Part shown: in pieces, positions 1,032-23,452 of the stretch
Layout of the letters: every line of letters begins with the position of its first letter
How positions within the stretch are numbered: the stretch's first letter is position 1
Source: Marinitoga aeolica
GTDB taxonomy: Bacteria > Thermotogota > Thermotogae > Petrotogales > Petrotogaceae
Direction of reading: 5' to 3'
Assembly (NCBI RefSeq): GCF_029910535.1
Contig: NZ_CP069362.1
Location: 248,001 to 312,000 of the forward strand
DNA length: 64,000 bases
Notes under the pieces: model-generated
Database searches by the model: none
Told to the model about the DNA's origin: nothing
What the model saw: the letters and a program-made list of their open reading frames with translations, nothing else
Made by a program: the position numbers and the translations under genes

Positions 1032-1454
1032 CTATTTTACTTCTATCCATTCTCCTATTACATATGGATTCTCTTTTTGTTGAAATATATCTCTTTTATC
1101 TACTGCAAAAAAGCTTTTATTTTTCACATTAACTATTTCCTTTATTTTTCCAATTACGTATTGTAAAAATGATGTTCCACCACTTAAATTAAAATATATT
1201 TCTTCAGCATCATTTAAATATTTTTCTACATTTTTTATTTTTTCATCAATTTCTTCAAATCCATAAAAAGGATTATTAAATTTTATTACTTTTATATTTT
1301 TTAAATTAAAATCTGATTTTTCAGCAATTTCACTTATTTTTTCTGCACCTTTTTCTGATGTAACAATAATACATAGATCTGGATTTGTGCTTTTTAAAGC
1401 TGTATAAACAACTCCTGGTGATGTGCCTAATGGTGTAATTAAAATTTTACTCAT
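1032..1454 (-). CDS. Stand-alone CARF-domain protein (cOA sensor or ring nuclease)
   Basis: The 140-residue protein is essentially one Rossmann-like CARF domain. It opens with a beta strand and loop (ILITPLGTSPG, 4-14) and has the second ligand loop NLSGGTSF at 89-96. CARF domains bind cyclic oligoadenylates made by Cas10. No HEPN, nuclease or wHTH domain is fused to it. Proteins of this shape are either ring nucleases that degrade cOA (Crn1-like) or sensors acting through a partner. The adjoining kinase gene starts 11 bp downstream. The start is ATG with GAGGAGG upstream, and a copy of the island's boundary element sits between it and the preceding cas2. The family is confident; whether it cleaves cOA or regulates the kinase cannot be told from sequence. 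Confidence 0.82.
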   Translation of the reverse strand: MSKILITPLGTSPGVVYTALKSTNPDLCIIVTSEKGAEKISEIAEKSDFNLKNIKVIKFNNPFYGFEEIDEKIKNVEKYLNDAEEIYFNLSGGTSFLQYVIGKIKEIVNVKNKSFFAVDKRDIFQQKENPYVIGEWIEVK

Positions 1455-1475: not shown

Positions 1476-1500
1476 TTTCAAATTATTACTAGACATTTAT
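1476..1500 (-). repeat. Island boundary element, copy 1
   Basis: Read on the minus strand it is AAATGTCT, two variable bases, then TAATAATTTGAAA. It overlaps the stop codon of the upstream cas2 and leads into the ribosome-binding site of the CARF gene. Confidence 0.8.
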
Positions 1501-1772
1501 TTAATTATTAATCCTTCAAATTTTGTTTTTACTACTCCAAAATCAAGTCTTATAAAGTTTTCTTTTGAATTGAATATATAAAATATAATATTATCTTCTT
1601 CTTTCTTTATAATTTTGTATAAATCCCTTTTTAATTTTTTGAAATTACCCTGAGTTATATATCCTTCAAATGTTGAATTTTGCTGCCAAATTAAATATTT
1701 TTTCATAATTTTATGTATTTTACCTACTCTTTCTTCGTTAACATCATATACACTTATTAAATACATACTCAT
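1497..1772 (-). CDS. cas2: Cas2 (second, divergent copy)
   Basis: This 91-residue protein has the Cas2 ferredoxin-like layout: strand and metal-binding Asp in ISVYDVN (6-12), a helix, the conserved WQQNSTFEG stretch, and a C-terminal strand pair. Cas2 dimers bridge two Cas1 dimers in the spacer-integration complex. The gene overlaps the end of cas1 by 4 bp, so the two are translationally coupled. It differs clearly from the other cas2 at 2774-3040, so this single cas1 is flanked by two cas2 paralogues. The C-terminal portion is less conserved than in the other copy. Confidence 0.9.
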   Translation of the reverse strand: MSMYLISVYDVNEERVGKIHKIMKKYLIWQQNSTFEGYITQGNFKKLKRDLYKIIKKEEDNIIFYIFNSKENFIRLDFGVVKTKFEGLIIK

Positions 1773-2761
1773 AATTTATATGGTTTATATTCCTCCTCTC
1801 CTTTTAAATGTTTTATTAGTTTATAACATTCATATCTAATTAAATTTTTGTATGATATTTTTTGATCTTTATATAATGTAATTTTTGTTTCTAATCTTTT
1901 TTCTATTTCTTCTATTAATTTAATTTGACCAGTTTTTGATAAATAAACACCTTCATTTACTGGAGTAAAATCTTCATCTTTTTTTATTATATTTTTATTT
2001 ATCAAAGTTATAATACTTCTATCCACAATAATTGGTTTAAAAATTTCTGATACATCTAAATTTAGTGAGAATTTTCGCATATTTGGTTCATGTAAAAAAG
2101 AAATTCTAGGTTCTAAAGATGTTTGATATATTTCAGCTAATGTAATATTGTATAATATGACATTTCCAAAACTTATCATTGCGTTTATCTCATCTTTAGG
2201 TGGTTTTTTCGTTCTTTGTTCAAAGGTGAAATTGTTTTTATTTAAGATAATACCTAACCCTTTATAATAATTTTTTCGAATATTTCCTTCTATTGCCATT
2301 ACTGCATTTACATTATTTTGTGAATCAACTGTTTTCTGTAATGATCTCATTAAATTTATTATTTTTTCTAAATCATTATAATTTTTCTTGTAATTTTCCA
2401 AAACTCTTATCATATTTTCTGATGAACCTTCAACAAACTTTTTAGCCACTTTTAATCTTTTATCTTTGTTTATGTAATTTTCATATTGTTTAATCATTGT
2501 TAAGCCTATTTTATTCATTTCTCTAGGATAAAATGCACCTATATAATTTCCATAATAATCATAAAAATACGCGGGTATTTCTTCCTTTGCAAAAAAATGC
2601 AATAATCTTTTGTTTAAAGTAACTTCAGAAAAGAACATTAAAGATGATATGTTTTTTAAAGGAATATGTAATGAATTTTTATTTTTATCTTTTGGTTCTA
2701 TATATAATGTACTATCCTTTCTTTTTAATTCGCCGTCTAAAAATACATAAATAGTATCCAT
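1769..2761 (-). CDS. cas1: Cas1 CRISPR integrase
   Basis: At 330 residues it has normal Cas1 length. The N-terminal beta domain is followed by the helical catalytic domain with the metal ligands E158 (AIEGN), H224 (FLHEP) and E239 (DVSEIFKP). Cas1 inserts new spacers at the leader end of the array. The protein is not fused to a reverse transcriptase, Cas4 or Cas6, and none of those adaptation partners is encoded beside it. It lies between two cas2 genes, with a 12-bp gap upstream and a 4-bp overlap downstream. The array it probably serves begins 9 kb away on the same strand. Confidence 0.97.
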   Translation of the reverse strand: MDTIYVFLDGELKRKDSTLYIEPKDKNKNSLHIPLKNISSLMFFSEVTLNKRLLHFFAKEEIPAYFYDYYGNYIGAFYPREMNKIGLTMIKQYENYINKDKRLKVAKKFVEGSSENMIRVLENYKKNYNDLEKIINLMRSLQKTVDSQNNVNAVMAIEGNIRKNYYKGLGIILNKNNFTFEQRTKKPPKDEINAMISFGNVILYNITLAEIYQTSLEPRISFLHEPNMRKFSLNLDVSEIFKPIIVDRSIITLINKNIIKKDEDFTPVNEGVYLSKTGQIKLIEEIEKRLETKITLYKDQKISYKNLIRYECYKLIKHLKGEEEYKPYKL

Positions 2762-2773
2762 TCTTCACCCCCT

Positions 2774-3040
2774 TTATACAATTATATTTGATGTTTTACC
2801 TTTTGATTCTCCTAATATATAGGTTCTGGGTTTCATAGAATTTTTCATTATATACCAGTATATTGTGTCTACATTTTTATCCAATATTTTTTCTACAGAA
2901 TCTTTTAATATTTTAAAATCTTTTTCGGTAATCTCTCCTTCTAAAACAGAGTTTTGAATCCAATTTAAGTATTTTCTCGACTTTTTCAATACCTTTGCAA
3001 CCTTTTTTGGATTTACATCATATACCATAATTACATACAT
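2774..3040 (-). CDS. cas2: Cas2
   Basis: The 88-residue protein is a canonical Cas2. It has the metal-binding Asp in IMVYDVN (4-10) and the well-conserved WIQNSVLEGEIT stretch, followed by the final strand and a short tail. It starts with ATG 9 bp after the small gene at 3050-3301 and ends 12 bp before cas1, forming one operon with them. It is closer to the family consensus than the cas2 downstream of cas1, and so is the better candidate for the structural partner in integration. Confidence 0.95.
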   Translation of the reverse strand: MYVIMVYDVNPKKVAKVLKKSRKYLNWIQNSVLEGEITEKDFKILKDSVEKILDKNVDTIYWYIMKNSMKPRTYILGESKGKTSNIIV

Positions 3041-4205: not shown

Positions 4206-4229
4206 AAATAGCACCCTAAGGTGCTATTT
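4206..4229 (-). terminator. Intrinsic terminator after the CARF-HD gene
   Basis: A perfect 10-bp stem (AAATAGCACC/GGTGCTATTT) with a 4-nt loop is followed on the minus strand by a T run. It overlaps the stop codon of the gene ending at 4228. Confidence 0.9.
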
Positions 4230-6642
4230 AATAACTTATAATAACTTCTTTTATATTAATATCTTTTGCTAAGTTCGAATTATTAAATTCATCAATAATA
4301 TCTTTTTTTATTTTATCTAATGTAGAATTATCGATTTCTGAAACTTCTATATTTTTTATTAATTTAATATGCAATTTCTTATTATTATCTTTATTTGAAT
4401 ATTCCAACCATTCTGGAATAACTGCTGAAACAGATTTATGTTTATTAAAGTGTCCAAATTGTCTAGCTTTAAATGCTATTTTATCTATTAATTCAAACAT
4501 ATTATTCATATTATCAATATTTTCATATACATAACCTTCTAATTTTTCAGCTTCTTTTTCAACTAATTTCATATCATCAATAAGTTCTTTTTCGTTATTT
4601 ATTTTAGTATGTTTTGATAACTTATCTTTTATTATATTTATTGAATTATAATAATTATCATTTATTTCATAATTGCTTTTTAATTTATCAATCAAATAAA
4701 TGATTTCATTTTTAGTTCTTTCTATCCTGTTTTTATGATAATTTTCTGTAACTACTCTATCAGCTTGTACATCTGTTCCATCAATGAACTTTAACCATTT
4801 TGCTAAATACATTGTTATTCTTTTTAATAATTCATCATCTGGATTAAACACATCTTCTAATTTTCTTATATCTAAATTCATTATTTCTGCAAATTTTTTA
4901 TTATTTGACTCTCTATCAACTCCCAAATATCCTCTATGATATTTACATATCATCTTTATAGAAGAAACGACTTCTAATGTTTTATCTATAAAAATTTTTC
5001 TTAATGATATACCTTCAAAATCATTTTCTATAGCTAATACATCATAATTATAATCTTCAATTAATTGTACCGTTAATTCATTATGCAAATCCCTTACTAA
5101 TGAAGGTAATGAATCTAAATAGAATTTATTTCCATTCCTATCTTTAAATATAGGGTACGTATGTCCTAAATCATGAACATTAATTGATACACCCAATAAA
5201 AAGTAAATTAAATCCTTATAAGTTATATTTTTTGTATATTCTCTATTTAATTCTTCTTCATTAAATGGTTTTAAAAATTCTTCTTCTCCTATTGTATTAA
5301 TTAAATTAACTGTGAATTCCATTAACCTTTTACTATGTCTTTGTGAATGTTCTACTGTTTCCGGTATTTGATCTCCTATCCACATTTGTGACCATTTTTT
5401 TATTATTCCATATTTCAAATAATTTTTTAAATCTTCATTTTCTATTAAATCAAAATATCGTTCTCCATAGCCAAAAGGCATTTCTCTTTTTTCTTTAAAG
5501 CTATTAATTATTTCTCCAATAGGATAAAAAGGTAATATTTCATTATCTCTTATATTTAATATTTCATATAATTCTTTTGGTATATCAATTATTTCTTCAA
5601 AATTTGTATTATTATATGACTTGAAAATAGCATTTAATTCATCGATATAATTATAATCCCAATCTATTCCAAAAGCTGGAATTTTCACTATATCAAATTG
5701 TCTTTCATATTTATAATAAAAACTTTTTCTATCAAATAATGCATATAATGCCATTATTACACCAATATACTTTATTCCTGGAGCTATATCAATTATTACT
5801 TCTTTTTCTTTTTTGAATATCTCATCCAAATACTCCCATATTTCATTTAAAGTATTTTTTGATGTTTCTATATTTTCAGTATCAAAATAAATTTTTCTAT
5901 ACTCAACATCTATTCCAAAAAATTTTTGAATTGCATATTTTAAATAATAATATATTTTATTTAATTCATTTTCATACTCTAAACCTAATTCTTCTACTTC
6001 TTCTTTTGTTATATTATTGAAAGGATAATATATGAATAATATGACTTTTTTTATATTAAATCCCTTATTTTTTAATATTTGAAGTGTTTGAAGTTCTGGA
6101 GATCTATCTATATTTTGGAAAGTAAGATCTTTTAAAAAATCCAATTCCGTTTTATTTATTTTTTTTGATTCCCTATTAATATAATTTTCAAAAGCAATTC
6201 CTACAGGCATAACTACAGTAATATCACCTATTAATTTATTTTCAATAAAATCTATTAGTTCTTTTATTGATTTCATTCCTTCTTTTTTTAGATTTTTAGC
6301 TATATTTTTATTCTTATATTTCAACATTTCTTTTTCGTTTAATTTTTTGAAAGAGTAAATGCCATATTCTTCTAAAGATTCAAAATTGACTTTTTTAGAT
6401 TTTTCTTCAACTTCTAATATATGTTTTTCTTTTTTATCATATTCTAATAAATCTTTTATTTCAAAATATTCATCTAATACTATTTCAGGATCTTTTTTGT
6501 ATATATGCCTTATCTTTAATACTACTGGAGAATCATATAATTTGTGTATATCCTCTTTTTCTGGTAAAAACGTTTTTTCTTCCTCAATTCGTACTTCTGG
6601 ATTAGCTGTTTTTTCTTTAATTGTTTTAGTCCATCTTTTCAT
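4228..6642 (-). CDS. CARF-HD protein with the C-terminal part of a CYTH domain
   Basis: The 804-residue protein has three parts. Residues 1-95 look like the last strands of a CYTH (triphosphate tunnel) domain: RWTKTIKEK, VRIEEEKTF, VLKIRHIYK, ILEVEEKS; the missing first part lies in the ORF just upstream. Residues 138-345 form a CARF-like domain (ITVVMPVGIAFENY, KKVILFIYYPF, EVIIDIAPGIKYIGVIMALYA). Residues 425-630 form an HD-type phosphohydrolase domain with H432, H490-D491 (VHDLGH), H569 (KYHRG) and D621/D624. The rest is helical. HD and CYTH domains both act on phosphorylated nucleotides, so the likely picture is a cOA-gated nucleotide or RNA hydrolase. The ATG at 6642 has only a weak ribosome-binding site, which favours translation continuing from the upstream ORF. 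A terminator follows at once. Confidence 0.8.
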   Translation of the reverse strand: MKRWTKTIKEKTANPEVRIEEEKTFLPEKEDIHKLYDSPVVLKIRHIYKKDPEIVLDEYFEIKDLLEYDKKEKHILEVEEKSKKVNFESLEEYGIYSFKKLNEKEMLKYKNKNIAKNLKKEGMKSIKELIDFIENKLIGDITVVMPVGIAFENYINRESKKINKTELDFLKDLTFQNIDRSPELQTLQILKNKGFNIKKVILFIYYPFNNITKEEVEELGLEYENELNKIYYYLKYAIQKFFGIDVEYRKIYFDTENIETSKNTLNEIWEYLDEIFKKEKEVIIDIAPGIKYIGVIMALYALFDRKSFYYKYERQFDIVKIPAFGIDWDYNYIDELNAIFKSYNNTNFEEIIDIPKELYEILNIRDNEILPFYPIGEIINSFKEKREMPFGYGERYFDLIENEDLKNYLKYGIIKKWSQMWIGDQIPETVEHSQRHSKRLMEFTVNLINTIGEEEFLKPFNEEELNREYTKNITYKDLIYFLLGVSINVHDLGHTYPIFKDRNGNKFYLDSLPSLVRDLHNELTVQLIEDYNYDVLAIENDFEGISLRKIFIDKTLEVVSSIKMICKYHRGYLGVDRESNNKKFAEIMNLDIRKLEDVFNPDDELLKRITMYLAKWLKFIDGTDVQADRVVTENYHKNRIERTKNEIIYLIDKLKSNYEINDNYYNSINIIKDKLSKHTKINNEKELIDDMKLVEKEAEKLEGYVYENIDNMNNMFELIDKIAFKARQFGHFNKHKSVSAVIPEWLEYSNKDNNKKLHIKLIKNIEVSEIDNSTLDKIKKDIIDEFNNSNLAKDINIKEVIISY

Positions 6643-6662
6643 TATTCCAGTTCTTTGAGGAA

Positions 6663-6803
6663 TTAATTCAAGCTAATTCTTTCTTCCTTATTTTCATCAC
6701 TTTTTAAATACCATTGTATAATTCCTATTTTTTTTGAGTTCTCTTTTATTTTACTAATTTCAGTTTCATCTGTAATAAAATATTTCCACTCTTTTTCTAG
6801 CAT
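6663..6803 (-). CDS. N-terminal CYTH fragment, one frame off the CARF-HD gene
   Basis: A 46-codon ORF starting at ATG 6803, with GGAGGGAGG in front of it. The product begins MLEKEWKYF, which contains the CYTH signature ExExK (E3, E5, K7), and continues with IGIIQWYLKS and EERISL, which match the next two CYTH strands. It stops at 6663, while the CYTH strands that should follow are at the start of the 804-residue protein in the -1 frame. A single -1 shift near 6663-6670 would give one continuous CYTH-CARF-HD protein of about 850 residues. This could be a real frameshift, a sequencing error, or programmed frameshifting; no classical slippery heptamer is visible at the site. Confidence 0.65.
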   Translation of the reverse strand: MLEKEWKYFITDETEISKIKENSKKIGIIQWYLKSDENKEERISLN

Positions 6804-6832: not shown

Positions 6833-7453
6833 TTAAAAATATTTATTTAATAGATATTTATATCTCTTTTTACCTACACCTTTTATTTTCATTATTTCTC
6901 TAAATCTATTTATTTTTATATTGCTTCCAAATAATGGATTAGTTTTAATAATATTTGCATCAGAAAGTTCATATAATGCATTTTCAATACCTGTTTTTTC
7001 TTTTTCGCCAGCTTGAAAATCAAGACAAATTATAATTTCAGCATCTAAATCAAAAAGTTTTTCTACAATTTCTTTTTCCACAATTCTCCAATTTAATCCA
7101 CCAAGTCCTGAACCTAGCATAGGTAATGCTATTTTTTTTATTTTATTTTTTATAATATATTCTTTTAAATCTATTAAACCACTACTAATCCATTCTATTT
7201 TTGAAGGATACTTGTAATCATCTTTGGTAGGAAAATTAGCAATGATTTCTTTGTCTTCCCAAAACCATATTTTACCAGGTTTTATTTCTTTTTTTAAACA
7301 TTTTTCTTTATATTCCTTTTCCATTTCTGGATATCTTAAAGCAAATTCAAAAGCTAAACCTTTTCCCATATATCCCTTTGTGTTTATTGTATTTACTAGA
7401 ATATCTACATCATTTTTAAATTCAAATAATGAAAATGGACTTAGTCTTATCAA
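6833..7453 (-). CDS. darG: Macro-domain protein, DarG-like antitoxin
   Basis: The protein is a macro domain: VDILVNTINTKGYMGKGLAFEFALRYP is the ADP-ribose-binding region, and LPMLGSGLGGLNW is the phosphate loop. DarG removes the ADP-ribose that DarT puts on thymidine in DNA. The frame opens at an ATG at 7483, but the well-placed AAGGAGAG points to the TTG at 7453 as the start, giving 206 residues directly behind darT. The C-terminal 20 residues (IKGVGKKRYKYLL) resemble a helix-hairpin-helix DNA-binding motif. It is shorter than typical DarG, which carries an additional DarT-neutralising domain. The pairing with DarT makes the call firm. Confidence 0.88.
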   Translation of the reverse strand: MIRLSPFSLFEFKNDVDILVNTINTKGYMGKGLAFEFALRYPEMEKEYKEKCLKKEIKPGKIWFWEDKEIIANFPTKDDYKYPSKIEWISSGLIDLKEYIIKNKIKKIALPMLGSGLGGLNWRIVEKEIVEKLFDLDAEIIICLDFQAGEKEKTGIENALYELSDANIIKTNPLFGSNIKINRFREIMKIKGVGKKRYKYLLNKYF

Positions 7454-7469
7454 ATTATCTCTCCTTTCT

Positions 7470-8063
7470 TTATAGTTTTTCAAAGTATATATCTTTTATA
7501 TATGGTGTATTATATGATACATTGGTAAATCTTCTTAAAGATCTATAATTTTTACTTGAATTTACTATTATCCCATCTATATATTTTACACTAATTTTTT
7601 CATACATTAACACTTCTGATTGCATTATTTGTTTTAAATTTTTATTTCCATTCCAATTTTTAGAAAAAATCATTTCTTTTAGTAATTCTAAATCTTTTAT
7701 GTTTTTAGTAAATATAGCATCACCTGCAGAAGCGTTTTTTACAGAAAAAAAATGATCATATATTCTTAATATTTTATTTGAAATTTCTAAAATTACAATA
7801 TCTCTTTTTTCTTTTAAATATCTATATAACATAGCATTTCTTGGATTTATGTATAACGGAACATATTCATATAGCATTTTATTATTTGGCAATATTTTAT
7901 ATCTTCTTCTATTTTGAACATCTCTATCAGAGTAATCTTTTTCAATAACATTTTTTCTTATAGCATATTCTCTTGAATAAATATAACCACTTTTAAATAT
8001 TTTCATAGCATTTTCATATGGAGTTATATAGTAAAATTTTTCAAATATAATTCCACCTCCCAA
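7470..8063 (-). CDS. darT: DarT-like DNA ADP-ribosyltransferase toxin
   Basis: A DUF4433/DarT family protein. Features in order are YYITPYENAMKIFKSGYIYSR (NAD-binding start), VQNRR (49-53), YVPLYINPRNAMLY, a stretch corresponding to the ADP-ribosylating turn-turn loop, and QSEVLMYEKI with the candidate catalytic Glu E150. DarT attaches ADP-ribose to thymine bases of DNA, and DarTG systems abort phage replication. The macro-domain gene follows by 16 bp. The start is unclear: the frame opens at TTG 8063, but the GGGAGGTGG lies inside the frame, so translation may begin a few codons later at a non-standard codon near 8046-8051. A weak start would suit a toxin. An intrinsic terminator lies directly upstream. 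Confidence 0.88.
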   Translation of the reverse strand: MGGGIIFEKFYYITPYENAMKIFKSGYIYSREYAIRKNVIEKDYSDRDVQNRRRYKILPNNKMLYEYVPLYINPRNAMLYRYLKEKRDIVILEISNKILRIYDHFFSVKNASAGDAIFTKNIKDLELLKEMIFSKNWNGNKNLKQIMQSEVLMYEKISVKYIDGIIVNSSKNYRSLRRFTNVSYNTPYIKDIYFEKL

Positions 8064-8065
8064 AG

Positions 8066-8094
8066 AAAATAAGGGGCATTTAACCCCTTATTTT
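8066..8094 (-). terminator. Intrinsic terminator after the RNase H-like gene
   Basis: An 11-bp stem around AAGGGG/CCCCTT is followed on the minus strand by TTTTCTTT. It separates the RNase H-like gene from darT and overlaps the region where darT could start. Confidence 0.85.
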
Positions 8095-8479
8095 AAAATA
8101 CATCAACAAATCTAGCTATTTTATCTGCATATTTTACATTTTCTCTACTTTTCCATATTAATGAAACTTTAGGTAATTGTTTATACAATTTTCTACATTG
8201 ATTTACAATTGCTGTATTTTTTTTACCTTTTGCTTTTCCTGTTATTAATTCATATGAACTTTTACTATCTGTTATTATTGTTACATATTCATCTTTGTAA
8301 TTTCTTTTTGCTAATCTTAAAGCTCTTAATATTGCATTTAATTCAACAATATTACTTCTATTTTTTTCATACAATATTCCAACTTCTTCTTTATCAATTA
8401 TATTTTCCCCTTTAAAAACTGCTACAACATAATATCCTTTTCCTTCTCTTAATCTTCCATCAACAACCATTTTAATCAT
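8093..8479 (-). CDS. RNase H-like protein
   Basis: A 128-residue RNase H fold protein with all four acidic active-site positions: D7 (VVDGR), E46 (VELNAI), D71 (ITDSKSS) and D119 (YADKIAR). It should cut RNA in RNA:DNA hybrids, or a related substrate. It is shorter and more divergent than housekeeping RNase HI: the usual TDGS motif reads VDGR. It is a single-gene cassette, with boundary element 4 and AAGGAGGG directly before its ATG and its own terminator after it. A role with the CRISPR system, such as processing DNA:RNA hybrids, is plausible but not shown. Confidence 0.8.
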   Translation of the reverse strand: MIKMVVDGRLREGKGYYVVAVFKGENIIDKEEVGILYEKNRSNIVELNAILRALRLAKRNYKDEYVTIITDSKSSYELITGKAKGKKNTAIVNQCRKLYKQLPKVSLIWKSRENVKYADKIARFVDVF

Positions 8480-10211: not shown

Positions 10212-11166
<955 letters not shown>

Positions 11167-11799: not shown

Positions 11800-14700
11800 T
11801 ATACCATACCTCATAGGTAGATTAAAAACATTATGAGTTTGTAGCTAATATGCATGATGAATGGCAGTTTCCATACCTCATAGGTAGATTAAAAACGAGA
11901 AAGTATTTGAATTGAGAGAGGAGTAAAATCCTCGTTTCCATACCTCATAGGTAGATTAAAAACTTTTTGTTTCGAAGGATCAGATGAATTTCTCGCACGT
12001 TTCCATACCTCATAGGTAGATTAAAAACATGAGTCAAAAAACAAAGCATTGGCGATAGAAAGGTCTTGTTTCCATACCTCATAGGTAGATTAAAAACAGA
12101 TTTATCGAATCAAAAGGCGCCTCCACAAAATTTGGTTTCCATACCTCATAGGTAGATTAAAAACTTTTACCCAAATTTAACAGAATATTATAAGGTGGTT
12201 GCTGTTTCCATACCTCATAGGTAGATTAAAAACCAACCTGAACCACCAACAAACGACGCTGGAACAAAGGGGATGCGTTTCCATACCTCATAGGTAGATT
12301 AAAAACTTTCAATAAACAAAGGATTTATAAAAAAAATTTAAGGGGGTATGTTTCCATACCTCATAGGTAGATTAAAAACTGTTCATAAGTATATGGTTTA
12401 TAATCCCTGCAATGTTGTTTCCATACCTCATAGGTAGATTAAAAACTGTTCATAAGTATATGGTTTATAATCCCTGCAATGTTGTTTCCATACCTCATAG
12501 GTAGATTAAAAACCTTATTAAAGAAACAATCAGAAATAAAACAAAAAATTAGTTTCCATACCTCATAGGTAGATTAAAAACCTTATTAAAGAAACAATCA
12601 GAAATAAAACAAAAAATTAGTTTCCATACCTCATAGGTAGATTAAAAACTAGTAAAAATAGAAGGAATAGGATACGAAATCGATAAAGTTTCCATACCTC
12701 ATAGGTAGATTAAAAACAAAAGAAAGAGAGAAGGGGATAAAGTTTCCCTCGAGTTTCCATACCTCATAGGTAGATTAAAAACAAATGGAAAATGTTTTCA
12801 AATTCGCCAAATCTCACTACGTTTCCATACCTCATAGGTAGATTAAAAACATATCCAAAAAAGTAGCTGCTGGCGAACTAGAAGCAGCTCAGTTTCCATA
12901 CCTCATAGGTAGATTAAAAACCAGAAAAGATCTTAAGAATAAAAGATTAGCTTTAAACGTTTCCATACCTCATAGGTAGATTAAAAACTGTTTGCAATCA
13001 TTGGTTTTGCCGTTGGTTTAATATATGTTTCCATACCTCATAGGTAGATTAAAAACAAAAAATAAAGTAACAATATACACAGACGGAAGTTGTTTCCATA
13101 CCTCATAGGTAGATTAAAAACGTAAGAAACTCGGCATCAAAAAACCGGGTTATTATGTGTTTCCATACCTCATAGGTAGATTAAAAACCAACAGTAGAAA
13201 TTATTCCAGTAGTCGCAGAAAAATCTAGTTTCCATACCTCATAGGTAGATTAAAAACTTTACACTCATCATATTCACTTAAGTTTTCTTGTAATGTTTCC
13301 ATACCTCATAGGTAGATTAAAAACTATTATAGAATTTCCACCTTACGGTGAAGTTGCTAGGGGTTTCCATACCTCATAGGTAGATTAAAAACGCAAATTC
13401 CTCCTTTTTATTAATTCACATTGTAAATCAAGTTTCCATACCTCATAGGTAGATTAAAAACTTTTTATAAACACCCCGAAAGGGGTGTTTATTACCTTCG
13501 GTTTCCATACCTCATAGGTAGATTAAAAACAATGATTGGGAGGTGTAAAAATGGCCGGCAGAGTTAAATATGCGGTTTCCATACCTCATAGGTAGATTAA
13601 AAACAACGATGGAGCAGTATTAACTTACAACAAAGTTATGACGTTTCCATACCTCATAGGTAGATTAAAAACTATAATATACAATTTTCTACAAACTTAC
13701 CATTTGCTGTTTCCATACCTCATAGGTAGATTAAAAACGGTATTCGCAAAAAGAAAGTTCGGTAGTTTTGTGTAGTTTCCATACCTCATAGGTAGATTAA
13801 AAACTTTATAATAAGTGGTTAATAGTAGAATAGTAAAACAAGGTTTCCATACCTCATAGGTAGATTAAAAACTAAACAAGGTAGCTTTAGAACAAAGGTA
13901 ACAACTGTTTCGTTTCCATACCTCATAGGTAGATTAAAAACACGAACCAAAAAGAAGTCCTAGTTCTGGTATTTGGGAACAGTTTCCATACCTCATAGGT
14001 AGATTAAAAACTGAATACGCAGAAGACAAAATAAAAGAATATGGATTCGTTTCCATACCTCATAGGTAGATTAAAAACTGCAGACAACAAAGCAATAAGA
14101 AACATGTACGCAGACACATGTTTCCATACCTCATAGGTAGATTAAAAACAAAAAACGAAGTTGAAAAGTTCGAAAAGAGTGAGGCGTAGTTTCCATACCT
14201 CATAGGTAGATTAAAAACAAAAGAGTGAGGCGTAAGCCTCGCTCTTTTTTTATGATGTTTCCATACCTCATAGGTAGATTAAAAACGACGGCAAAAAATT
14301 CTACTGGGCCGCAAGCGGCGACCCGTTTCCATACCTCATAGGTAGATTAAAAACACAAATACGAAGTAATGATGTCACAAGATGGAAATCTCGTTTCCAT
14401 ACCTCATAGGTAGATTAAAAACTTTTTATGCAATTAATAAGTATGAAATCATGACGTCGTTTCCATACCTCATAGGTAGATTAAAAACTTATATCAGGAA
14501 ATTATAATCAGGGGGAACACCCCCCTGGTTTCCATACCTCATAGGTAGATTAAAAACGAGTACTATTGATTATAGAGCAAATCAATATAATATGTTTCCA
14601 TACCTCATAGGTAGATTAAAAACAAAGAAAAAATAGAAGAATAGCTAAACAAGCCATCAGTTTCCATACCTCATAGGTAGATTAAAAACCTCGTATTTGA

Positions 14701-16254
14701 TAAATACGGGATATTGAAGTTTTCCTCGTTTCCATACCTCATAGGTAGATTAAAAACACAAGTATCCTCAAAGATAGCGAAATTTACTCAGAAGGTTTCC
14801 ATACCTCATAGGTAGATTAAAAACGCCAACGGTAAGATTAAGGAAATGTCAAGAAACGTTGTTTCCATACCTCATAGGTAGATTAAAAACCTAATGAATT
14901 AGTTAAAAATGTCTTAGATGATTTAAAGTTTCCATACCTCATAGGTAGATTAAAAACCAGCACATCATATGTTGAACATTATATAGACGATACACAGTTT
15001 CCATACCTCATAGGTAGATTAAAAACCAGTGAATTCAAACAAGTTTATTGAGTATTTAAAATCGTTTCCATACCTCATAGGTAGATTAAAAACTTTAACA
15101 GCAAAAGAAATTACAAAAATAGGAGGGGTTAGTTTCCATACCTCATAGGTAGATTAAAAACATTCAACTTTTAAAAGAAAGAGGATTAGAGGCAATAATG
15201 TTTCCATACCTCATAGGTAGATTAAAAACTCTAAAGTTCGTGAAGAAGGTGACACGGGAAAATACCATGTTTCCATACCTCATAGGTAGATTAAAAACAT
15301 AAAACAAAGAATATCAGAAATAGAAGAAGAATTAAAACGTTTCCATACCTCATAGGTAGATTAAAAACTATTTTTAGTGTAATGGAGAGGGTGAAAAATT
15401 TTATTGTAGTTTCCATACCTCATAGGTAGATTAAAAACCAGAAAAATAATGAATTAGATGAAATAGCAATTAGTTTCCATACCTCATAGGTAGATTAAAA
15501 ACTGAATATCTTATGGGAAAAAACAAAGTGGTTGATCGATAGGTTTCCATACCTCATAGGTAGATTAAAAACTATTTTTAGTGTAATGGAGAGGGTGAAA
15601 AATTTTATTGTAGTTTCCATACCTCATAGGTAGATTAAAAACCAGAAAAATAATGAATTAGATGAAATAGCAATTAGTTTCCATACCTCATAGGTAGATT
15701 AAAAACTTGATAAAGCAATAGACAGCGAAAATTTCGATATTTAGTTTCCATACCTCATAGGTAGATTAAAAACTTAAACAAGAAACAAGAGAAAGGTTAA
15801 ATTCAGTATTTGAGTTTCCATACCTCATAGGTAGATTAAAAACGATTTTGAAAAACAAAATTGCAAATTCTGAATTACCCAGTTTCCATACCTCATAGGT
15901 AGATTAAAAACGCTCAAATATTTGCTGGACGTGATGGATTTTTAACGATAGGTTTCCATACCTCATAGGTAGATTAAAAACGAATTGGGAAAAGCAATAA
16001 AAATGGTAGAAAAATGGGTTTCCATACCTCATAGGTAGATTAAAAACCCTTTTAGATTTACAATCATACAACACACTTGAAGAAGTTTCCATACCTCATA
16101 GGTAGATTAAAAACTAGAATTAAAAGTGGCGGTAACGCTTTTGGTATGGGAACAGTTTCCATACCTCATAGGTAGATTAAAAACTTTGAAAGAAAGGAGG
16201 CGAATACCTTGAAACTATCAATACGTTTCCATACCTCATAGGTAGATTAAAAAC
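11800..16254 (-). CRISPR. CRISPR array, 66 repeats of 30 bp and 65 spacers
   Basis: Counting each repeat start by eye gives 66 repeats and 65 spacers of 34-44 nt. On the transcribed minus strand the repeat begins GTTTTTAATC and ends ATGGAAAC, the usual 8-nt crRNA tag of type III systems. Orientation is supported by the degenerate repeat at 11800, the terminator beyond it, and the leader at the other end. Repeats are otherwise almost identical. Duplicated spacers occur at 12380-12416 and 12447-12483, at 12514-12551 and 12582-12619, and as a pair at 15369-15472 and 15573-15676. Most spacers are purine-rich on the plus strand, so most crRNAs would be antisense to mRNA. The repeats form the only array in the window and most likely supply the type III-A complex upstream. 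Confidence 0.98.
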
Positions 16255-16582: not shown

Positions 16583-16602
16583 AGGCCGATTAAATTCGGC
16601 CT
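16583..16602 (-). terminator. Intrinsic terminator of the csm operon
   Basis: A stem of AGGCCGA/TCGGCCT is followed on the minus strand by TTTTTTATT. It overlaps the stop codon of the gene ending at 16590 and isolates the array from the csm operon. Confidence 0.85.
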
Positions 16603-17210
16603 AATTCTCCAAATCCATTTTCAATTTTATTACCTAATCCAAATGTTTCTAAATATAAAAGAAATGGCGAATGCCATAATTCTGAAATCTCAAACTCTAA
16701 TTTCCCCTTCCAATAATTCTCATCATAATTTTTTAAGGAAAAACTTTTTAGATTTGGCAAAATATCTGTTGTTTTTATTTTCATATATTTTTCAAATTCT
16801 TTTCTTTTTTGGTCAAGTTCATAAAAAATATTTTTTTTAAAAATAATAGGTGTAATGGTTTTTAGTGAAATGATTTTTTCATTTATATTTACTTTTTCTA
16901 TTATATAATTTCGAGGATAATTATTATATTCAATTGACCATAATTTAATTTGATTTCCATTATAATCAATATATTTCCTATAATAATTATTTAGGGATAT
17001 AATTATTGTTCTAGCTAAAGGCTTATACATTGTAGCAATTTTTAATCCATACGTTTTTCTACCTTTAAATGGTCCTGTGATTTTTAAATATGGTGGTTTT
17101 AAATCATTGATTTTAAAATTAAAATAATTATATGTAATGTAAGATATCAAATCTTTATTTATTTTTTCTTTTTCTCCTTCAAAATATGTTTCAATTTTTG
17201 CAAAAAACAA
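16590..17210 (-). CDS. Cas6-like RAMP protein at the end of the csm operon
   Basis: The 206-residue protein ends with GLGNKIENGFGELG, the Gly-rich loop typical of the second RRM of Cas6 and other RAMP proteins. The body is a mix of strands and short helices with many aromatic and basic residues. It is distinct from the Cas6 at the head of the operon. It may be a second, divergent Cas6 for pre-crRNA processing or an additional RAMP accessory. It follows csm5 directly and is the last gene before the operon terminator. A catalytic His cannot be assigned. Assignment to the RAMP superfamily is fair; assignment to Cas6 is tentative. Confidence 0.6.
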   Translation of the reverse strand: MFFAKIETYFEGEKEKINKDLISYITYNYFNFKINDLKPPYLKITGPFKGRKTYGLKIATMYKPLARTIIISLNNYYRKYIDYNGNQIKLWSIEYNNYPRNYIIEKVNINEKIISLKTITPIIFKKNIFYELDQKRKEFEKYMKIKTTDILPNLKSFSLKNYDENYWKGKLEFEISELWHSPFLLYLETFGLGNKIENGFGELGRI

Positions 17211-18395
17211 CTATTCCACCTCTATATTATTTATTTTTAACCAACCTAATGGGGAAAATGCATCTTCATTTTTATATACCACTAATTTCCTTGATGCTGG
17301 TGCCGGCAAATCACCATGATCTCTGTATAACCTATTTCTTAAAGCTATTTTATTATTTTCATTTAATAAATTAAATAATGACACATAACTCCATCCTGAG
17401 GAGTTTCCTATTCTTAGATTTCCCATATCTTTTATCATATTTAAAATTGTTTTAAAAGAAGATAGGTACTTTTCGTAGTCTTCAGCTTCATATTCGAATT
17501 TATTGTCAAAGTTATCTTTAAATTTTAGTGTATAACTTTTTTCGGTATAATTCAAAAGATAATCTTGTTGTTTTATATCTTCATAATATGTTTTTATTAT
17601 TTTTTCTATATCTTTTGGAGTTATTAAATTTCCCATTTCATTCGCTAACCATTCATCATATGTAATAGATATTGTGAAATTTATATTTCTAGGTATTGCT
17701 TCTAAAAATATCGGAGCACCTCTTTTTACTTCAAATCTATTATTTGTTAAATGAAAAATTCTAACTCCATATATACTTGCTTCGATATTTTCATCTAAAA
17801 CAATATCTTCAAATCTTAATGTTCTTAAGAAATCTTTATTTTGATTATTGCCTCCAATTTTTTTACTTATTAAATGTTTCTCAATATTTTTATATAAATC
17901 TTTTAATTTGAAATTATTAGACTTTGAAGTTTTTCTTTTTATTTGCCTATTTCTTATAGCTTCTGAAATACAATTATTTAAATCTAATATGAATTTTTTA
18001 TCTTCCTTTAAAAAATAATAATTAATCGCATTTCTAAAAGCACCTTTAATGGACGATCCAGGAATCATTAATTTTCCGTCTATAGTTCTTATATGTGCTC
18101 TTATTGTTCTTGCTCTATTTTCATTAAATCCTAACCCTTTTTTACAAGAATAAATATATTCAGCATCTTTTTTATATTCAGAAATTTTATCTATATATTT
18201 TTCAAAGGCTCTTCCAGATTCTTGCATGTACTTAATATAATACTTTTTATTCATTCTTAATAAATGTATACTGTTTTTCCCTTTAGAATTAACTTCTGAT
18301 TTTTTTGCATACTCACTAATTGGAATTTCTGAATCTGTTCCCCCTATGTAAAGAGGTGTTAGTGTTTTTACGTTAATTTTTATTTTTTTAAACAT
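17211..18395 (-). CDS. csm5: Csm5, type III-A effector subunit
   Basis: A 394-residue RAMP protein with the Csm5 pattern: N-terminal strand and VKTLTPLYIGG, then MIPGSSIKGAFRNAI (the RAMP Gly loop) and C-terminal MGNLRIGNSSGWSYVSL. The final stretch has the LPAPASRKLV block seen near the end of Csm5 proteins. Csm5 caps the 3' end of the crRNA in the Csm complex and recruits processing nucleases. It overlaps csm4 by 8 bp and is followed with no gap by the Cas6-like gene. Confidence 0.92.
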   Translation of the reverse strand: MFKKIKINVKTLTPLYIGGTDSEIPISEYAKKSEVNSKGKNSIHLLRMNKKYYIKYMQESGRAFEKYIDKISEYKKDAEYIYSCKKGLGFNENRARTIRAHIRTIDGKLMIPGSSIKGAFRNAINYYFLKEDKKFILDLNNCISEAIRNRQIKRKTSKSNNFKLKDLYKNIEKHLISKKIGGNNQNKDFLRTLRFEDIVLDENIEASIYGVRIFHLTNNRFEVKRGAPIFLEAIPRNINFTISITYDEWLANEMGNLITPKDIEKIIKTYYEDIKQQDYLLNYTEKSYTLKFKDNFDNKFEYEAEDYEKYLSSFKTILNMIKDMGNLRIGNSSGWSYVSLFNLLNENNKIALRNRLYRDHGDLPAPASRKLVVYKNEDAFSPLGWLKINNIEVE

Positions 18396-19269
18396 TTATA
18401 TCACTCCAATTCACTTTTAAATATATTGGAGTTCCAGAAATAATACTATTGTTTATTGTTGTCTTCACATTTTTCCCTTTTATTTCAAAATCGAATAAAC
18501 TTCCTTCTTCAAAATATTTTACTGTAGGTTTTAAATCGCCACTTCTTGTGTCAAATGATCTATATTCTTTTATTTTATAATAAGATTTGTCTGTAATTTT
18601 GTATATTTCTTCTTTTGTTGGTATATACATTCCTAGGTTTAATATATAATTGTATTTATCGCTATATAAATATTTTTCAAATAATGTATTTTTTGTTTCT
18701 TTAATTTCAAAATCAAATGCGCCGAATCCCCTTGTTTTTCTATATCCGCCCAATCCTTCATCTTCAGAGATTCTTAACGCAATTTCTAGATTATGTTTTT
18801 GTTCTTCTGGTAATTCAATTAGGAAATAAAAAGCATCTTTAATACTCAAAGCACTAACTAAATATAAAGCTGTTGAATTTTCTATTCTGTCTATTGCCAC
18901 CCCTGGTAATATAGTTTTAATTGATTTAAATTCATCTGGTATTTTTGCATTTTTTAACCAATTTTCTAAGTTTGATAAAAATATATATGGGGCTTTTTTT
19001 ATTTTTTTGAATTTTTCTGCTTCAATTTTTTCAGGTAATTTGAATGGTTTAGGAATTAAATATTCGTTTTTTATTTTTGGAAATAATGATGATAATCTTA
19101 TAGAATTAATAAATTCATATGTTTCTTCATCAGGTTTTATTTTATTTAATGAATTCCCTAACATTCCTAATATAGTATTTGAATTTGGTAATTCGGTAGT
19201 TTCATCATCCTTATGCGAAGTTTTATGGATAAACGACTTAAATTTTAATTCTACTATATATACTCCCAT
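18388..19269 (-). CDS. csm4: Csm4, type III-A effector subunit
   Basis: A 293-residue protein with Csm4 features: a short N-terminal strand, SNTILGMLGNSLNKI, LIPKPFKLP, GVAIDRIENSTALY, and the RAMP loop GLGGYRKTRGFGAF. Csm4 binds the 8-nt 5' tag of the crRNA and contacts Cas10. It lies between csm3 (4-bp gap) and csm5 (8-bp overlap) in the expected order. Confidence 0.92.
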   Translation of the reverse strand: MGVYIVELKFKSFIHKTSHKDDETTELPNSNTILGMLGNSLNKIKPDEETYEFINSIRLSSLFPKIKNEYLIPKPFKLPEKIEAEKFKKIKKAPYIFLSNLENWLKNAKIPDEFKSIKTILPGVAIDRIENSTALYLVSALSIKDAFYFLIELPEEQKHNLEIALRISEDEGLGGYRKTRGFGAFDFEIKETKNTLFEKYLYSDKYNYILNLGMYIPTKEEIYKITDKSYYKIKEYRSFDTRSGDLKPTVKYFEEGSLFDFEIKGKNVKTTINNSIISGTPIYLKVNWSDINV

Positions 19270-19273
19270 ATAA

Positions 19274-20029
19274 TCACTCCAGTATTTCTTGGAGTTTATT
19301 TAACATTTCTTTTGGAGATAACCCATATTCTTTTTCAAATAAATTATTTCCATTTATAAAATATTCTCTATCTTTTTTTGCAATTTTTTCTATTGTAAAC
19401 TCAACTTTACCATTACCTCTTGATCCACCTTTACCTAAATAATCTTCTTCTACTAATTCTAATAACTTAAAGATGTTTTCTATATCTTCTTTTTTATGAT
19501 TTTCATTTTCTACATTATATACAATTTCAAACTCAAATTTTGTACCTGCAGGTACTCTTTCTATTTGCCTCGGACTCGCTGCTGCAGTAATTCTATCTAA
19601 TGAATTTTCTGTTTTCCATTCTGTATACGGTAAATCTGTATCTAATTTTTCCAATAATTCTTTACTTTCTTTTGTCAAATATGAGTCTCTTACTATTATT
19701 TTCGATGGAATACTTTTATTTTTGTCAATAGAAGATCCAAAAAGCCTACAAACTTTACAATTTTCATCGTTACATTCGTGTCTTTTTACTTTATTTTTAC
19801 CAGAACCAAATGTTTCAAAATCAACATCTAAAACCTTTTCCAATAATGATCTCATTTTTCCTTTTAATGAACTACCAGGTATATAAGGTTCATTTGTTAA
19901 AGGATTTCTTATTACTGGTGAATCAATACCTCCTATACTAATACCAAAATCTGCTCCTCCTATATGTAAACCACTTTTTAACTCAATTTTCCCTTTTATA
20001 ATTATTTTTTCAATTATTTTCCCCGTCAT
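19274..20029 (-). CDS. csm3: Csm3, backbone and target-RNA nuclease
   Basis: A 251-residue RAMP protein that forms the repeating backbone of the Csm complex. The family motif ELKSGLHIGG is followed by GGIDSPVIRNP, where D36 corresponds to the Asp that cleaves target RNA at 6-nt intervals. The RAMP loop YIPGSSLKGKMRSLLE comes next, and a group of Cys/His residues at about 88-98 (HECNDENCKVCRLFG) should bind zinc. All key residues are present, so target RNA cleavage should be active. The start overlaps the csm2 stop by one base. Confidence 0.96.
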   Translation of the reverse strand: MTGKIIEKIIIKGKIELKSGLHIGGADFGISIGGIDSPVIRNPLTNEPYIPGSSLKGKMRSLLEKVLDVDFETFGSGKNKVKRHECNDENCKVCRLFGSSIDKNKSIPSKIIVRDSYLTKESKELLEKLDTDLPYTEWKTENSLDRITAAASPRQIERVPAGTKFEFEIVYNVENENHKKEDIENIFKLLELVEEDYLGKGGSRGNGKVEFTIEKIAKKDREYFINGNNLFEKEYGLSPKEMLNKLQEILE

Positions 20030-20463
20030 TATCTTTTACCCCCTTTATAATTTACTTTATTATTTTCTTCATAAAATTTAAAATAAGCTACTATTGAATC
20101 ATAAAATTTTTTAAATTTTTCAAACGATTTTATCGATTTTATTTTATCTATAGAAGGATCTAATACTCTTTTTAAATCTGATAAATTTGAATTTCTTACA
20201 GTATTATAAGCTATTAATGGTTTTATAAATAGTATTTCATCTTTAATATCCTGTGGAATAATGTTATCTTCTAAATTCCTTGAAGATACAGCAGAATATA
20301 TTTTTGTTATATGAGTATGTATCTTTCTGATTTGATTTGTTTTAGCTCCATTTTTATGTGCGGTTTCAGCTATTATCTCTGCATCTTTTATCATCTGCTC
20401 GGTATCATAATCTTCAAAAGTTTTTAAATTTTTAATCCTGTTAACAACATTATCAATTGACAT
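20029..20463 (-). CDS. csm2: Csm2, small helical subunit
   Basis: The 144-residue all-helical protein has the usual Csm2 size, charge and position between cas10 and csm3. Helices carry the stretch GAKTNQIRKIHTHITKIYSA, matching the family's most conserved helix. Csm2 subunits line the target RNA along the complex. There is a 13-bp gap to cas10 and a one-base overlap with csm3. Confidence 0.9.
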   Translation of the reverse strand: MSIDNVVNRIKNLKTFEDYDTEQMIKDAEIIAETAHKNGAKTNQIRKIHTHITKIYSAVSSRNLEDNIIPQDIKDEILFIKPLIAYNTVRNSNLSDLKRVLDPSIDKIKSIKSFEKFKKFYDSIVAYFKFYEENNKVNYKGGKR

Positions 20464-20476
20464 TTTTCCGCCCCCT

Positions 20477-22630
20477 TTATTTTCTAATGTATAAATCTAC
20501 TATTTGTATTGTTTTAAATAATTTACTATTTATTTTTTCGTCTAATATACTTCCAATTATTTTTTTATCTTCTTCATTACCTTTTGCATATGTATAATAT
20601 AGTAATGGTTTTTGTAAATTTTCTTCTTCTTCTCTTTCTTGTTCAGAATCTTTTAAAACGACATTCTGAGATATACCAAAAAGTTTATATAATAATGATC
20701 TACTTATATTATTTTTATAATCTTTTATATTAACTTTTTGATTTTCATTACTTATTCTGTCTTCCCCAATTATTTTTCTTATAAGCTTATATATATCTTC
20801 TATATCATTCCAGAAAAAGGTTGAGTTTTTCATAGTAAAGTCTGGCATTAATGTTAATGAATCTTTTTCTTTTCCATCTTTTTTATTTGATTTAGCCATA
20901 TCTTCTGCACTTCCTGAAAATTCCGCCAACCATTTTAATGCAGTCTTATTGTTTTCTAAAACCAAACCACCTGATAGAGTTATATCTGGATTTTTTACAA
21001 AATCATCGAAGATATTTTTTATTTCTAATGAACTTTCAAACACTTCATTCCAAGCTCCAATATAGAACAAATCATCTCCACCAGCATATATTATCATTAC
21101 ATTCCTTTCAGGAGAATTGTTCTCGTTTACATAAAAGATTCTTTTTTCATATTTTTTAGGTATTTTACCGGCACATATTGTAGGTATATATGATGAGAAA
21201 AATCTATTAAGCATTTTTGATAATGTACTTACTTTTTGTAAAGATGGTTGTTCTATATATGTTGAAAATATAGAACCAAGATTATCCACATCTGATCTAA
21301 ATACACCTATTAATTTTCTACCTATAGATTTTTCACTTAATTCCTCTAATGTTGTATGTGATTTAGGAGTATATAATGACAATAAAATTGGGGTTAGTTT
21401 ATTTTGTCTTTTTAAATATTTTCCTAAATTATATATATATCCCTTTTGATCTTTGTTTATTTCTTTAACTACTACATATCTTTTATTAAATATTTCTAAA
21501 TAACCGTATGGATCTTCTATTACCGCATTACCTTCTATTAAATCTTTTCCAAATTCTATCATTGAATCACAAAAATGGCATACTTTTAAATCATTTTTTT
21601 CTATAAGATTTTCTGTATAGACATTACAAACATCACATATTTTATCAGAAGATACTTTTTCATATTTTACTTTAAATAATTCACTTAAGGTTTCAGATGT
21701 ATATGGATGATATTTTTTTTCATTTATTTTTTTTGAACTTCTACTAAATACATTTGCTATATTATCTTTTAATTCCGAAATAGAAAATTCTTCTAAATTT
21801 GTTATTATTTGTAATTCAGGATGATTAGATATTATCCAATTATTAAATTCTGAAATAACTTTTTCTATAATTTTTTTATTTTTTTCAGTATTAGGTAATA
21901 TTAAATAAAAATTGCCACCACCAATAAAATGAATATGAATTCTTGATAGGTCTAATTCCTCTAATAATTTATCAACAAATACTTCTTGTAATAATTGTAA
22001 ATAGACTGAACGAGCTCTTAAAGATTTTAAAGCTCCTTTAGTGTTTATTGTATATATAAATTTTTGTGTTCCAGACATATCTCCGTGTAAAAGAAGGAAT
22101 GGTTTTTCTTTGTTTTCTGCTAATATATATGATGTATAAATCTGAGATTTTACTCTAGAATGTTCATATAATGATATTTCTGTTTCTTCACCTGTTGTTG
22201 CTGGAACGAATGAAAGATGTTTTTCCATTAAAAACAATATCTTTTTTAATGATTGATCTTTTTTAAAATCCTCTTTTAAATTATTTATTATTTCCTCATA
22301 TGTAGTGGTATTTTGGGTATCAGGAAATATTATTTTTTCATAATTATTTTCATATTCAATTATACTTAATGGGAAATAACTTTTAATTTTTTTTGAATTA
22401 TTACTTTTTTTAACTGTTGAAAAAACATTTACTAATTTTTGATTTACATTTTTTTCATTTTCATCTTCTAACTCCAAAAATTTTAATTCACTCATAATTT
22501 CTGGATTATAATCATTTTCTAAACCTAAAAGTTTTTTCACTTCTTCATATGAAAACTTTTTCTTTTCTTTTCTAAAAAAAATACGCCATAATTCCGATGT
22601 TAAATAAGATATAGGTATTTTTTCATCCAC
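20477..22630 (-). CDS. cas10: Cas10 (Csm1) without an HD nuclease domain
   Basis: The 717-residue protein has two palm domains separated by a zinc ribbon. The first palm region has LLHGDMSGTQKFIY and IGGGNFYLILP; the zinc ligands are C332, C335, C351 and C354; the second palm has VFRSDVDNLG and the cyclase motif GGDD at 517-520 (YAGGDDLFYIG). It should therefore make cyclic oligoadenylates from ATP when the complex binds target RNA. The HD motif normally found at the N terminus of Csm1 is absent: the family's SLYxHSR block already occurs at 153-159, leaving no room for a full HD domain. It therefore probably lacks the ssDNase activity. Confidence 0.96.
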   Translation of the reverse strand: MDEKIPISYLTSELWRIFFRKEKKKFSYEEVKKLLGLENDYNPEIMSELKFLELEDENEKNVNQKLVNVFSTVKKSNNSKKIKSYFPLSIIEYENNYEKIIFPDTQNTTTYEEIINNLKEDFKKDQSLKKILFLMEKHLSFVPATTGEETEISLYEHSRVKSQIYTSYILAENKEKPFLLLHGDMSGTQKFIYTINTKGALKSLRARSVYLQLLQEVFVDKLLEELDLSRIHIHFIGGGNFYLILPNTEKNKKIIEKVISEFNNWIISNHPELQIITNLEEFSISELKDNIANVFSRSSKKINEKKYHPYTSETLSELFKVKYEKVSSDKICDVCNVYTENLIEKNDLKVCHFCDSMIEFGKDLIEGNAVIEDPYGYLEIFNKRYVVVKEINKDQKGYIYNLGKYLKRQNKLTPILLSLYTPKSHTTLEELSEKSIGRKLIGVFRSDVDNLGSIFSTYIEQPSLQKVSTLSKMLNRFFSSYIPTICAGKIPKKYEKRIFYVNENNSPERNVMIIYAGGDDLFYIGAWNEVFESSLEIKNIFDDFVKNPDITLSGGLVLENNKTALKWLAEFSGSAEDMAKSNKKDGKEKDSLTLMPDFTMKNSTFFWNDIEDIYKLIRKIIGEDRISNENQKVNIKDYKNNISRSLLYKLFGISQNVVLKDSEQEREEEENLQKPLLYYTYAKGNEEDKKIIGSILDEKINSKLFKTIQIVDLYIRK

Positions 22631-22642
22631 AAATCCACCCCC

Positions 22643-23362
22643 TTATATTTTTTCTATACATCCAAAACCTATTGAATTTTTACTTCCTATACCACTATCA
22701 TATGCAAATTGAAGTAATTCTGGATCGCCTTTTAATTTAAATTGGCCCATCCAACCTTTTATGATTATGTTTTTGTATTTTGAAATTACTTCTTTTGGAT
22801 TTTTTGTTTGCTTAATATAAAAATTATCGCTTTTTGGTTCTTTACCATAAAAAGCTTTATATTTATTTATCAAATTTCTTTTTATTAATTCATTGAATTC
22901 AGTTTCATAAGGAGAGTAATAGTATGTTTTCTTCTTTTTGTCTTTTTCAAATGTAGAGTAAACTGTAATTGCAGATTTTGTTTTTACAAGCAATTCTTCA
23001 GAAGGTATTATAGAAGAATAATCTATTTTCGTTATTTTTATTTTTTGATTTAATAATTCAATTATTGGATTTTTAAACATCTGATCCATTAAATACATCA
23101 TTAATTGATTATCTGCTGAAGATATAATCAATTGTCCTTGATTTTTATATTTCACAAAATTCTTTTTTATTTCATATTCACCGAATATTCTTGAAAATGT
23201 ATACATTTTATATTTTCTTTTTCCATATTCATAACCTTTATCATGTATAAACTCTGCATATTCCTTATTATTTATATATTTTAAAATCATCGCTTGTATA
23301 ATATGATTATAGTGTATTGGTAAATTTAATTCTTCATAATCTAAATATAGTTTTAATCTCAT
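22643..23362 (-). CDS. cas6: Cas6 pre-crRNA endonuclease
   Basis: A Cas6-family protein of 239 residues. It has the N-terminal RRM strand MRLKLYLDY, a His near residue 17-20 (LPIHYNH) and the C-terminal loop GIGSKNSIGFGCIEKI. Cas6 cuts within each repeat to leave the ATGGAAAC tag on crRNAs. An ATG lies five codons upstream at 23377, but AAGGAGG sits 5 nt before the ATG at 23362, which is taken as the start. It is the first gene of the csm operon, behind a strong promoter. Confidence 0.93.
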   Translation of the reverse strand: MRLKLYLDYEELNLPIHYNHIIQAMILKYINNKEYAEFIHDKGYEYGKRKYKMYTFSRIFGEYEIKKNFVKYKNQGQLIISSADNQLMMYLMDQMFKNPIIELLNQKIKITKIDYSSIIPSEELLVKTKSAITVYSTFEKDKKKKTYYYSPYETEFNELIKRNLINKYKAFYGKEPKSDNFYIKQTKNPKEVISKYKNIIIKGWMGQFKLKGDPELLQFAYDSGIGSKNSIGFGCIEKI

Positions 23363-23452
23363 TATATCCTCCTTCATTTCCTTAAAATATTAACATATTA
23401 TTTATGTTATATTCTGTTTATTTTATAAAATTTTTAATTCTATCAATGCTAT

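Follow-up and report, generated by a model that had tools for sequence, protein, structure and literature searches.

A catalogued CARF_CYTH_HD protein with a broken CYTH frame beside type III CRISPR genes of Marinitoga aeolica, and the single-chain RNA polymerase that accompanies its relatives

The closest described relatives of the protein considered here belong to CARF7, a name that reportedly follows the classification which Makarova et al. drew up for CARF in 2020 (doi 10.1093/nar/gkaa635). The PADLOC collection lists a model with the same three domains (CARF7--CARF_CYTH_HD, PDLC01929) and a related one (CARF7--CARF_HD, PDLC01933, e.g. Fretibacterium fastidiosum), which is alike in its CARF domain and in an HD domain with the same invariant motif, and differs in having no CYTH domain and in occurring mainly in Synergistota among the genomes searched. 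For the CARF_CYTH_HD family, the literature yielded no experiment or reported function for any member. The Cami1 effector acts on the ribosome (RelE-type). By fold it is the nearest solved CARF effector (8phb, 8phj; a cA4-bound form is known), although it is not an HD protein. The ring nucleases Sis0811 and SSO1393 share the CARF fold and differ as small standalone enzymes that cleave cyclic oligoadenylate (cOA), while NE1496 and other CYTH/TTM triphosphatases share the tunnel fold, the ExExK motif and the charged tunnel residues, and differ as standalone enzymes without CARF or HD. Furthermore, the UAS-58 'two-component RNAPol + CARF' entry of PMC10910872 combines, in the available part of that article, a CARF protein and an RNA polymerase in the vicinity of type III loci, and the legend of its figure also names FleQ, CYTH and HD.

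The stretch of DNA analysed here (hereafter the window) comprises 64,000 nucleotides of Marinitoga aeolica (Thermotogota; contig NZ_CP069362.1, positions 248,001 to 312,000), and the gene of interest lies within it on the minus strand as two open reading frames (ORFs). Going by its sequence, this gene is a member of the known CARF7 family CARF_CYTH_HD: the longer ORF (804 codons, 4228-6642) matches PDLC01929 over the whole protein (E=5.9e-210; residues 38-796 against profile positions 19-700 of 706, i.e. 759 of the 804 residues spanned), the window copy differing by its split CYTH domain. As this model is already listed, the CYTH-CARF-HD architecture is not new, and the view of the initial annotation that the combination was undescribed has to be given up, the more so as PMC10910872, in the legend of its Fig. 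6C, likewise mentions CYTH, HD and CARF.

The shorter ORF (46 codons, 6663-6803, minus strand) starts with MLEKEWK, carries the first CYTH strands with the ExExK motif (EKEWK) and matches the start of intact homologues. The rest of the CYTH domain (6388-6642, approximately residues 1-85 of the 804-aa ORF), the CARF domain (5677-6225, approximately residues 140-322) and the HD domain (4753-5430, approximately residues 405-630) are encoded, all on the minus strand, by the longer ORF in a different frame. The initial annotation had placed both ORFs and their frames at these positions and had located the break in 6655-6680; the frames indeed switch within 6663-6675, where the overlap is no more than 7 nt (6672-6666); the stop of the downstream frame lies at 6675-6673 and that of the upstream frame at 6665-6663. 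The joined reading could be aligned end to end with an unbroken, single-frame 858-aa ORF of a congener (genome G041, locus L011; 89% identity), and also with a CYTH-like protein of 190 aa that stands alone in the window's own genome (L002). Taken together, the alignments indicate that the two ORFs are one gene, encoding a single CYTH-CARF-HD protein whose CYTH frame is broken in the assembly. DNA alignment places the break near 6666-6675, where the window copy lacks one base relative to the congener copy, outside any homopolymer. This one-base deficit, together with the lack of a slippery heptamer and the single frame of intact relatives, points either to a mutation that arose recently or to a sequencing error, as the initial annotation had offered, and away from the programmed frameshifting that it had listed beside them.

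The gene could, on the one hand, be a recent pseudogene with no role left in the present strain, given that the net loss of one base splits the CYTH domain and that the internal ATG at 6642 is preceded by a weak ribosome-binding site. Against this stand the 804-codon ORF, which is free of further stops, the existence of natural CYTH-less CARF-HD proteins, and a dN/dS of 0.16 for the downstream frame in comparison to the congener, a ratio that is unable to date the break and that indicates selection on the protein into the recent past; translation from the internal ATG may still yield the CARF-HD part of the window copy. We consider loss of function a real possibility, if one at well under an even chance. 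On the other hand, the break may be an error of sequencing or assembly in a gene that is really intact, in agreement with the clean reading of the remainder of the gene (and of the other window genes inspected) and with the intact congener copy, yet at odds with a break site that is not a homopolymer and with a genome assembled as a single contig (estimated completeness 100%); this too we hold to be possible, short of probable. The making of two products by programmed frameshifting, for which the overlap of the frames might speak, was rejected as extremely improbable, since the 7-nt overlap holds no X-XXY-YYZ heptamer and the intact relatives (one of them 89% identical) use a single frame.

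While a single-sequence scan of the genome contigs found no relative, an alignment-based scan recovered 12 loci, and a profile of 13 relatives matched the solved CARF protein 3qyf (E=8e-9). An AlphaFold2 (AF2) model of the intact homologue from Athalassotoga saccharophila (locus L032; mean pLDDT 82, pTM 0.82) matched the CARF structures of Cami1, Sis0811 and SSO1393, the CARF comparisons with all three, across this model and that of the window ORF, reaching a Foldseek probability of 1.00; the Pfam Cas_APE2256 match to the effector fell below the cut-off (2e-4). A HEPN nuclease domain, the trait of Csm6/Csx1 ribonucleases, was sought in the effector with Pfam and PADLOC and gave no match.

For the CYTH domain, Pfam and PDB sequence profiles with the CYTH part alone returned nothing, so that a fold comparison was required. 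The L032 model separately matched CYTH structures, i.e. the inorganic triphosphatase NE1496, HpAC1, and the RNA triphosphatases of vaccinia virus and mimivirus. The Pfam CYTH model matched neither the family nor even the standalone 190-aa paralogue, and the assignment consequently rests on fold and motif: in 10 CYTH domains (the paralogue included; numbering of the intact congener protein) E3, E5, K7, R42, R44, K63, E74, K97, R99, D111, E131 and E133 are invariant, and we take these 12 residues to be the charged tunnel of the CYTH/TTM superfamily. The AF2 model of the window's 804-aa ORF recovered the CARF domain and had no CYTH structure among its best 50 Foldseek matches, as expected of a truncated CYTH domain: the frame break at 6663-6675 leaves that of the window copy not intact. 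The domain is also absent from L005, L006, L036 and the Synergistota CARF-HD proteins and degenerate in L010, which argues that CARF-HD forms the constant core and that CYTH is not essential to the family.

Within the HD domain, the columns H432, H436, H490-D491, H494, R517-x-x-H520, Y568-H569-R570, D621 and D624 are invariant or nearly so, and the metal-binding motif proper (H432/H436, H490-D491, H520, H569 and D621/D624, window ORF numbering) is invariant in 11-13 sequences. The Pfam HD-CE match lies just below its curated cut-off (E=6e-6; 26.6 bits against 27). As no HD structure occurs among the top 50 Foldseek matches of either the L032 or the window model, the HD call rests on the motif and on this sub-cut-off match. 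For Synergistota ORFs of approximately 480 aa, the match to the CARF-HD family is confined to its HD part (G144 C11; G146 C17; G158 C1:473388-474701). All in all, the suggestion that CYTH, CARF and HD share one chain was borne out by the 858-aa congener ORF, the PADLOC match and the folds matched to solved structures, both the CYTH and the Rossmann (CARF) fold being predicted in the intact homologue.

The genomic surroundings argue for a strong link of the effector to type III CRISPR, as the initial annotation had supposed: in most of the loci whose flanks are long enough to judge, its homologues adjoin Cmr or Csm genes, a type III-A (Csm) operon lies in the window (16590-23377, minus strand), and a Cmr operon just upstream of it (235.7-241.3 kb of the genome). 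Both Cas10 palms were found by PF22335 and both keep the cyclase motif GGDD, the Csm Cas10 (20477-22630) having no HD start; the names of the Csm genes are our assignment by operon order and recognition. The operon includes a cas6 gene (22643-23377, minus strand), and a CRISPR array (11798 to approximately 16500) holds at least 66 copies of the 30-nt repeat GTTTCCATACCTCATAGGTAGATTAAAAAC. Duplicated repeat-spacer units occur in this array at 12347-12649 and 15339-15712 (two spacers are present twice each, and a 170-nt stretch recurs with 99% identity). The adaptation genes (1497-3040, minus strand) comprise a single, type I-B-like cas1 (Cas1b) flanked by two cas2 genes (1497-1772 and 2774-3040). 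Near the array, a radical-SAM-like protein is encoded at 10233-11153, and relatives with approximately 50% identity to it stand beside cas1/cas2 in two other genomes (L080 6346-7209; L081 4645-5508). A cluster of protein kinase, FHA, vWA and PP2C-like genes (G000, the genome of the window, 241355-249021, minus strand; L004 6355-14021) separates the Cmr operon from the cas1/CARF genes and runs into the window.

The immediate neighbours of the effector are DarG (macro domain) and DarT (6833-8063, minus strand), and the congener has the same order. RNase H-like genes were seen near the effector in the window (8093-8479) and in another CYTH-CARF-HD locus (L030 8986-9456); RNase H linked to adaptation modules is mentioned in the available text of PMC10910872. 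An entry 'pppGpp hydrolase + RelA' in the same partial text suggested a RelA/SpoT partner, a candidate that was rejected: the genome's one RelA-SpoT gene lies far from the effector, and no RelA occurred among the neighbours scanned.

A standalone 140-aa CARF protein (1032-1454, minus strand) has the same domain as the C-terminal CARF that is fused to some CYTH-CARF-HD homologues; identity is 46-50% to this domain in L013 and L014 and to the protein that directly follows CYTH-CARF-HD in L035, and 36% in L031. Across 103 Thermotogota genomes, this type of domain was found fused to Csm6-type CARF-HEPN, fused to CYTH-CARF-HD, or alone, the standalone form occurring in G000, G041 and G027 (all three with CYTH-CARF-HD); in addition, G077 has one ORF of fragment size and G071 a short remnant. 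Moreover, a standalone SAVED protein lies directly downstream of CYTH-CARF-HD in two loci (L030 12938-13606; L046 8491-9288). Both fusion to an effector and a position next to one have been described for ring nucleases (PMC12830947, PMC12409355). By analogy, the 140-aa CARF is probably an off-switch that degrades cOA; more broadly, we propose it as a cOA-degrading or second-sensor partner of the effector.

The strongest new lead is the association with an RNA polymerase. Many relatives of the effector adjoin a three-gene set that encodes a fused beta-beta' RNA polymerase (1230-1560 aa, the catalytic ADFDGD kept in all), a 220-320-aa protein and a sigma54-activator-like AAA protein, in operon-like order with the effector in eight loci (L032, L036, L044, L045, L047, L086, L104 and L105). 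Among 103 Thermotogota genomes, the fused polymerase (called by a clear E gap, 1e-67 or better against a housekeeping level near 1e-35) is present in 20/20 carriers of the HD gene (genomes with a match reaching the HD region) in comparison to 7/83 of the others (p=8.6e-16, with genomes treated as independent, which they are not), and the positives span eight families. Where a clear type III Cas10 palm is present, the figures are 18/18 carriers and 1/31 non-carriers (p=1.6e-12, under the same assumption of independence). The pattern recurs in 151 Synergistota genomes, in which 14 of the 22 CARF-HD carriers have the polymerase as against 2 of the other 129 (p=1.7e-12), the two genes being adjacent in all 14. 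This module and UAS-58 are probably of the same kind, as far as the available part of PMC10910872 describes the latter. In three other genomes DarT-DarG adjoins the fused polymerase (L076 5602-6886; L077 6348-7632; L079 5875-7730).

These associations raise the alternative that CARF-(CYTH)-HD primarily serves as partner to a dedicated single-chain RNA polymerase: here cOA would turn on (or free) an alternative transcription or RNA-synthesis module made up of the polymerase, the 220-320-aa protein and the AAA protein, with CYTH acting on RNA 5' triphosphates and HD on the product or the substrate of the polymerase. The co-occurrence counts, the operon-like loci and the conserved ADFDGD speak for it, as do the RNA triphosphatases among the CYTH fold matches and the presence of the polymerase in the window genome. 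That polymerase, however, lies 47 kb from the effector (201.6-205.7 kb) and has an adjacent CARF of its own, with which its operon at 199.4-205.7 kb begins (L065, outside the window; G000 199411-206781, minus strand: CARF7--CARF_DUF2103, the 1356-aa fused polymerase, a 261-aa protein without a Pfam match and the sigma54-activator-like AAA protein). The gene set of L065 recurs near type III loci. Furthermore, eight of the 22 Synergistota carriers are without polymerase, four of them having CARF-HD directly upstream of Cmr genes instead; the link is therefore not obligate, and the obligate partnership suggested by the Thermotogota counts was downgraded to a usual one. Physical or functional coupling does not follow from gene linkage, and we regard a primary role as polymerase partner as rather unlikely. 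Still more speculative, and in our judgement improbable, is the proposal that CARF-(CYTH)-HD forms the half that receives the signal in a transcription system triggered by CRISPR, in which cOA would activate the single-chain polymerase module and CYTH and HD would process its triphosphate RNA or nucleotides.

Judging from sequence and structural models, the effector is most likely an HD phosphohydrolase that is gated by cOA and has a triphosphate tunnel as an accessory, while a separate CARF would remove the signal. The cas genes suggest that the Csm or Cmr complex would detect foreign RNA and that Cas10 would then make cyclic oligoadenylate; folds, invariant residues and gene fusion suggest the steps that follow. 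The ring would bind to CARF, probably where the two subunits of a dimer meet, and change the conformation, by which the HD metal site would be switched on to hydrolyse a nucleotide or nucleic-acid phosphate, while CYTH may hold or trim a substrate or product that bears a triphosphate (NTP or RNA 5' triphosphate). Finally, the signal would be removed by a second module that binds cyclic nucleotides (in the window a separate CARF, elsewhere a fused domain or SAVED). That the window gene is a catalogued CARF_CYTH_HD member acting by these five steps, in a member of the Thermotogota that has two type III CRISPR systems, is the reading towards which we lean with some confidence.

To our knowledge, the targets of those type III CRISPR effectors that have been characterised are RNA, DNA, NAD, ATP, proteins or membranes. 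If the proposed mechanism is true, an HD hydrolase that is gated by cOA and equipped with a triphosphate tunnel would represent a new chemistry among these effectors. Moreover, the near-obligate polymerase link in Thermotogota, replicated in Synergistota, poses a testable question, namely whether the CRISPR alarm may switch on an alternative transcription machine.
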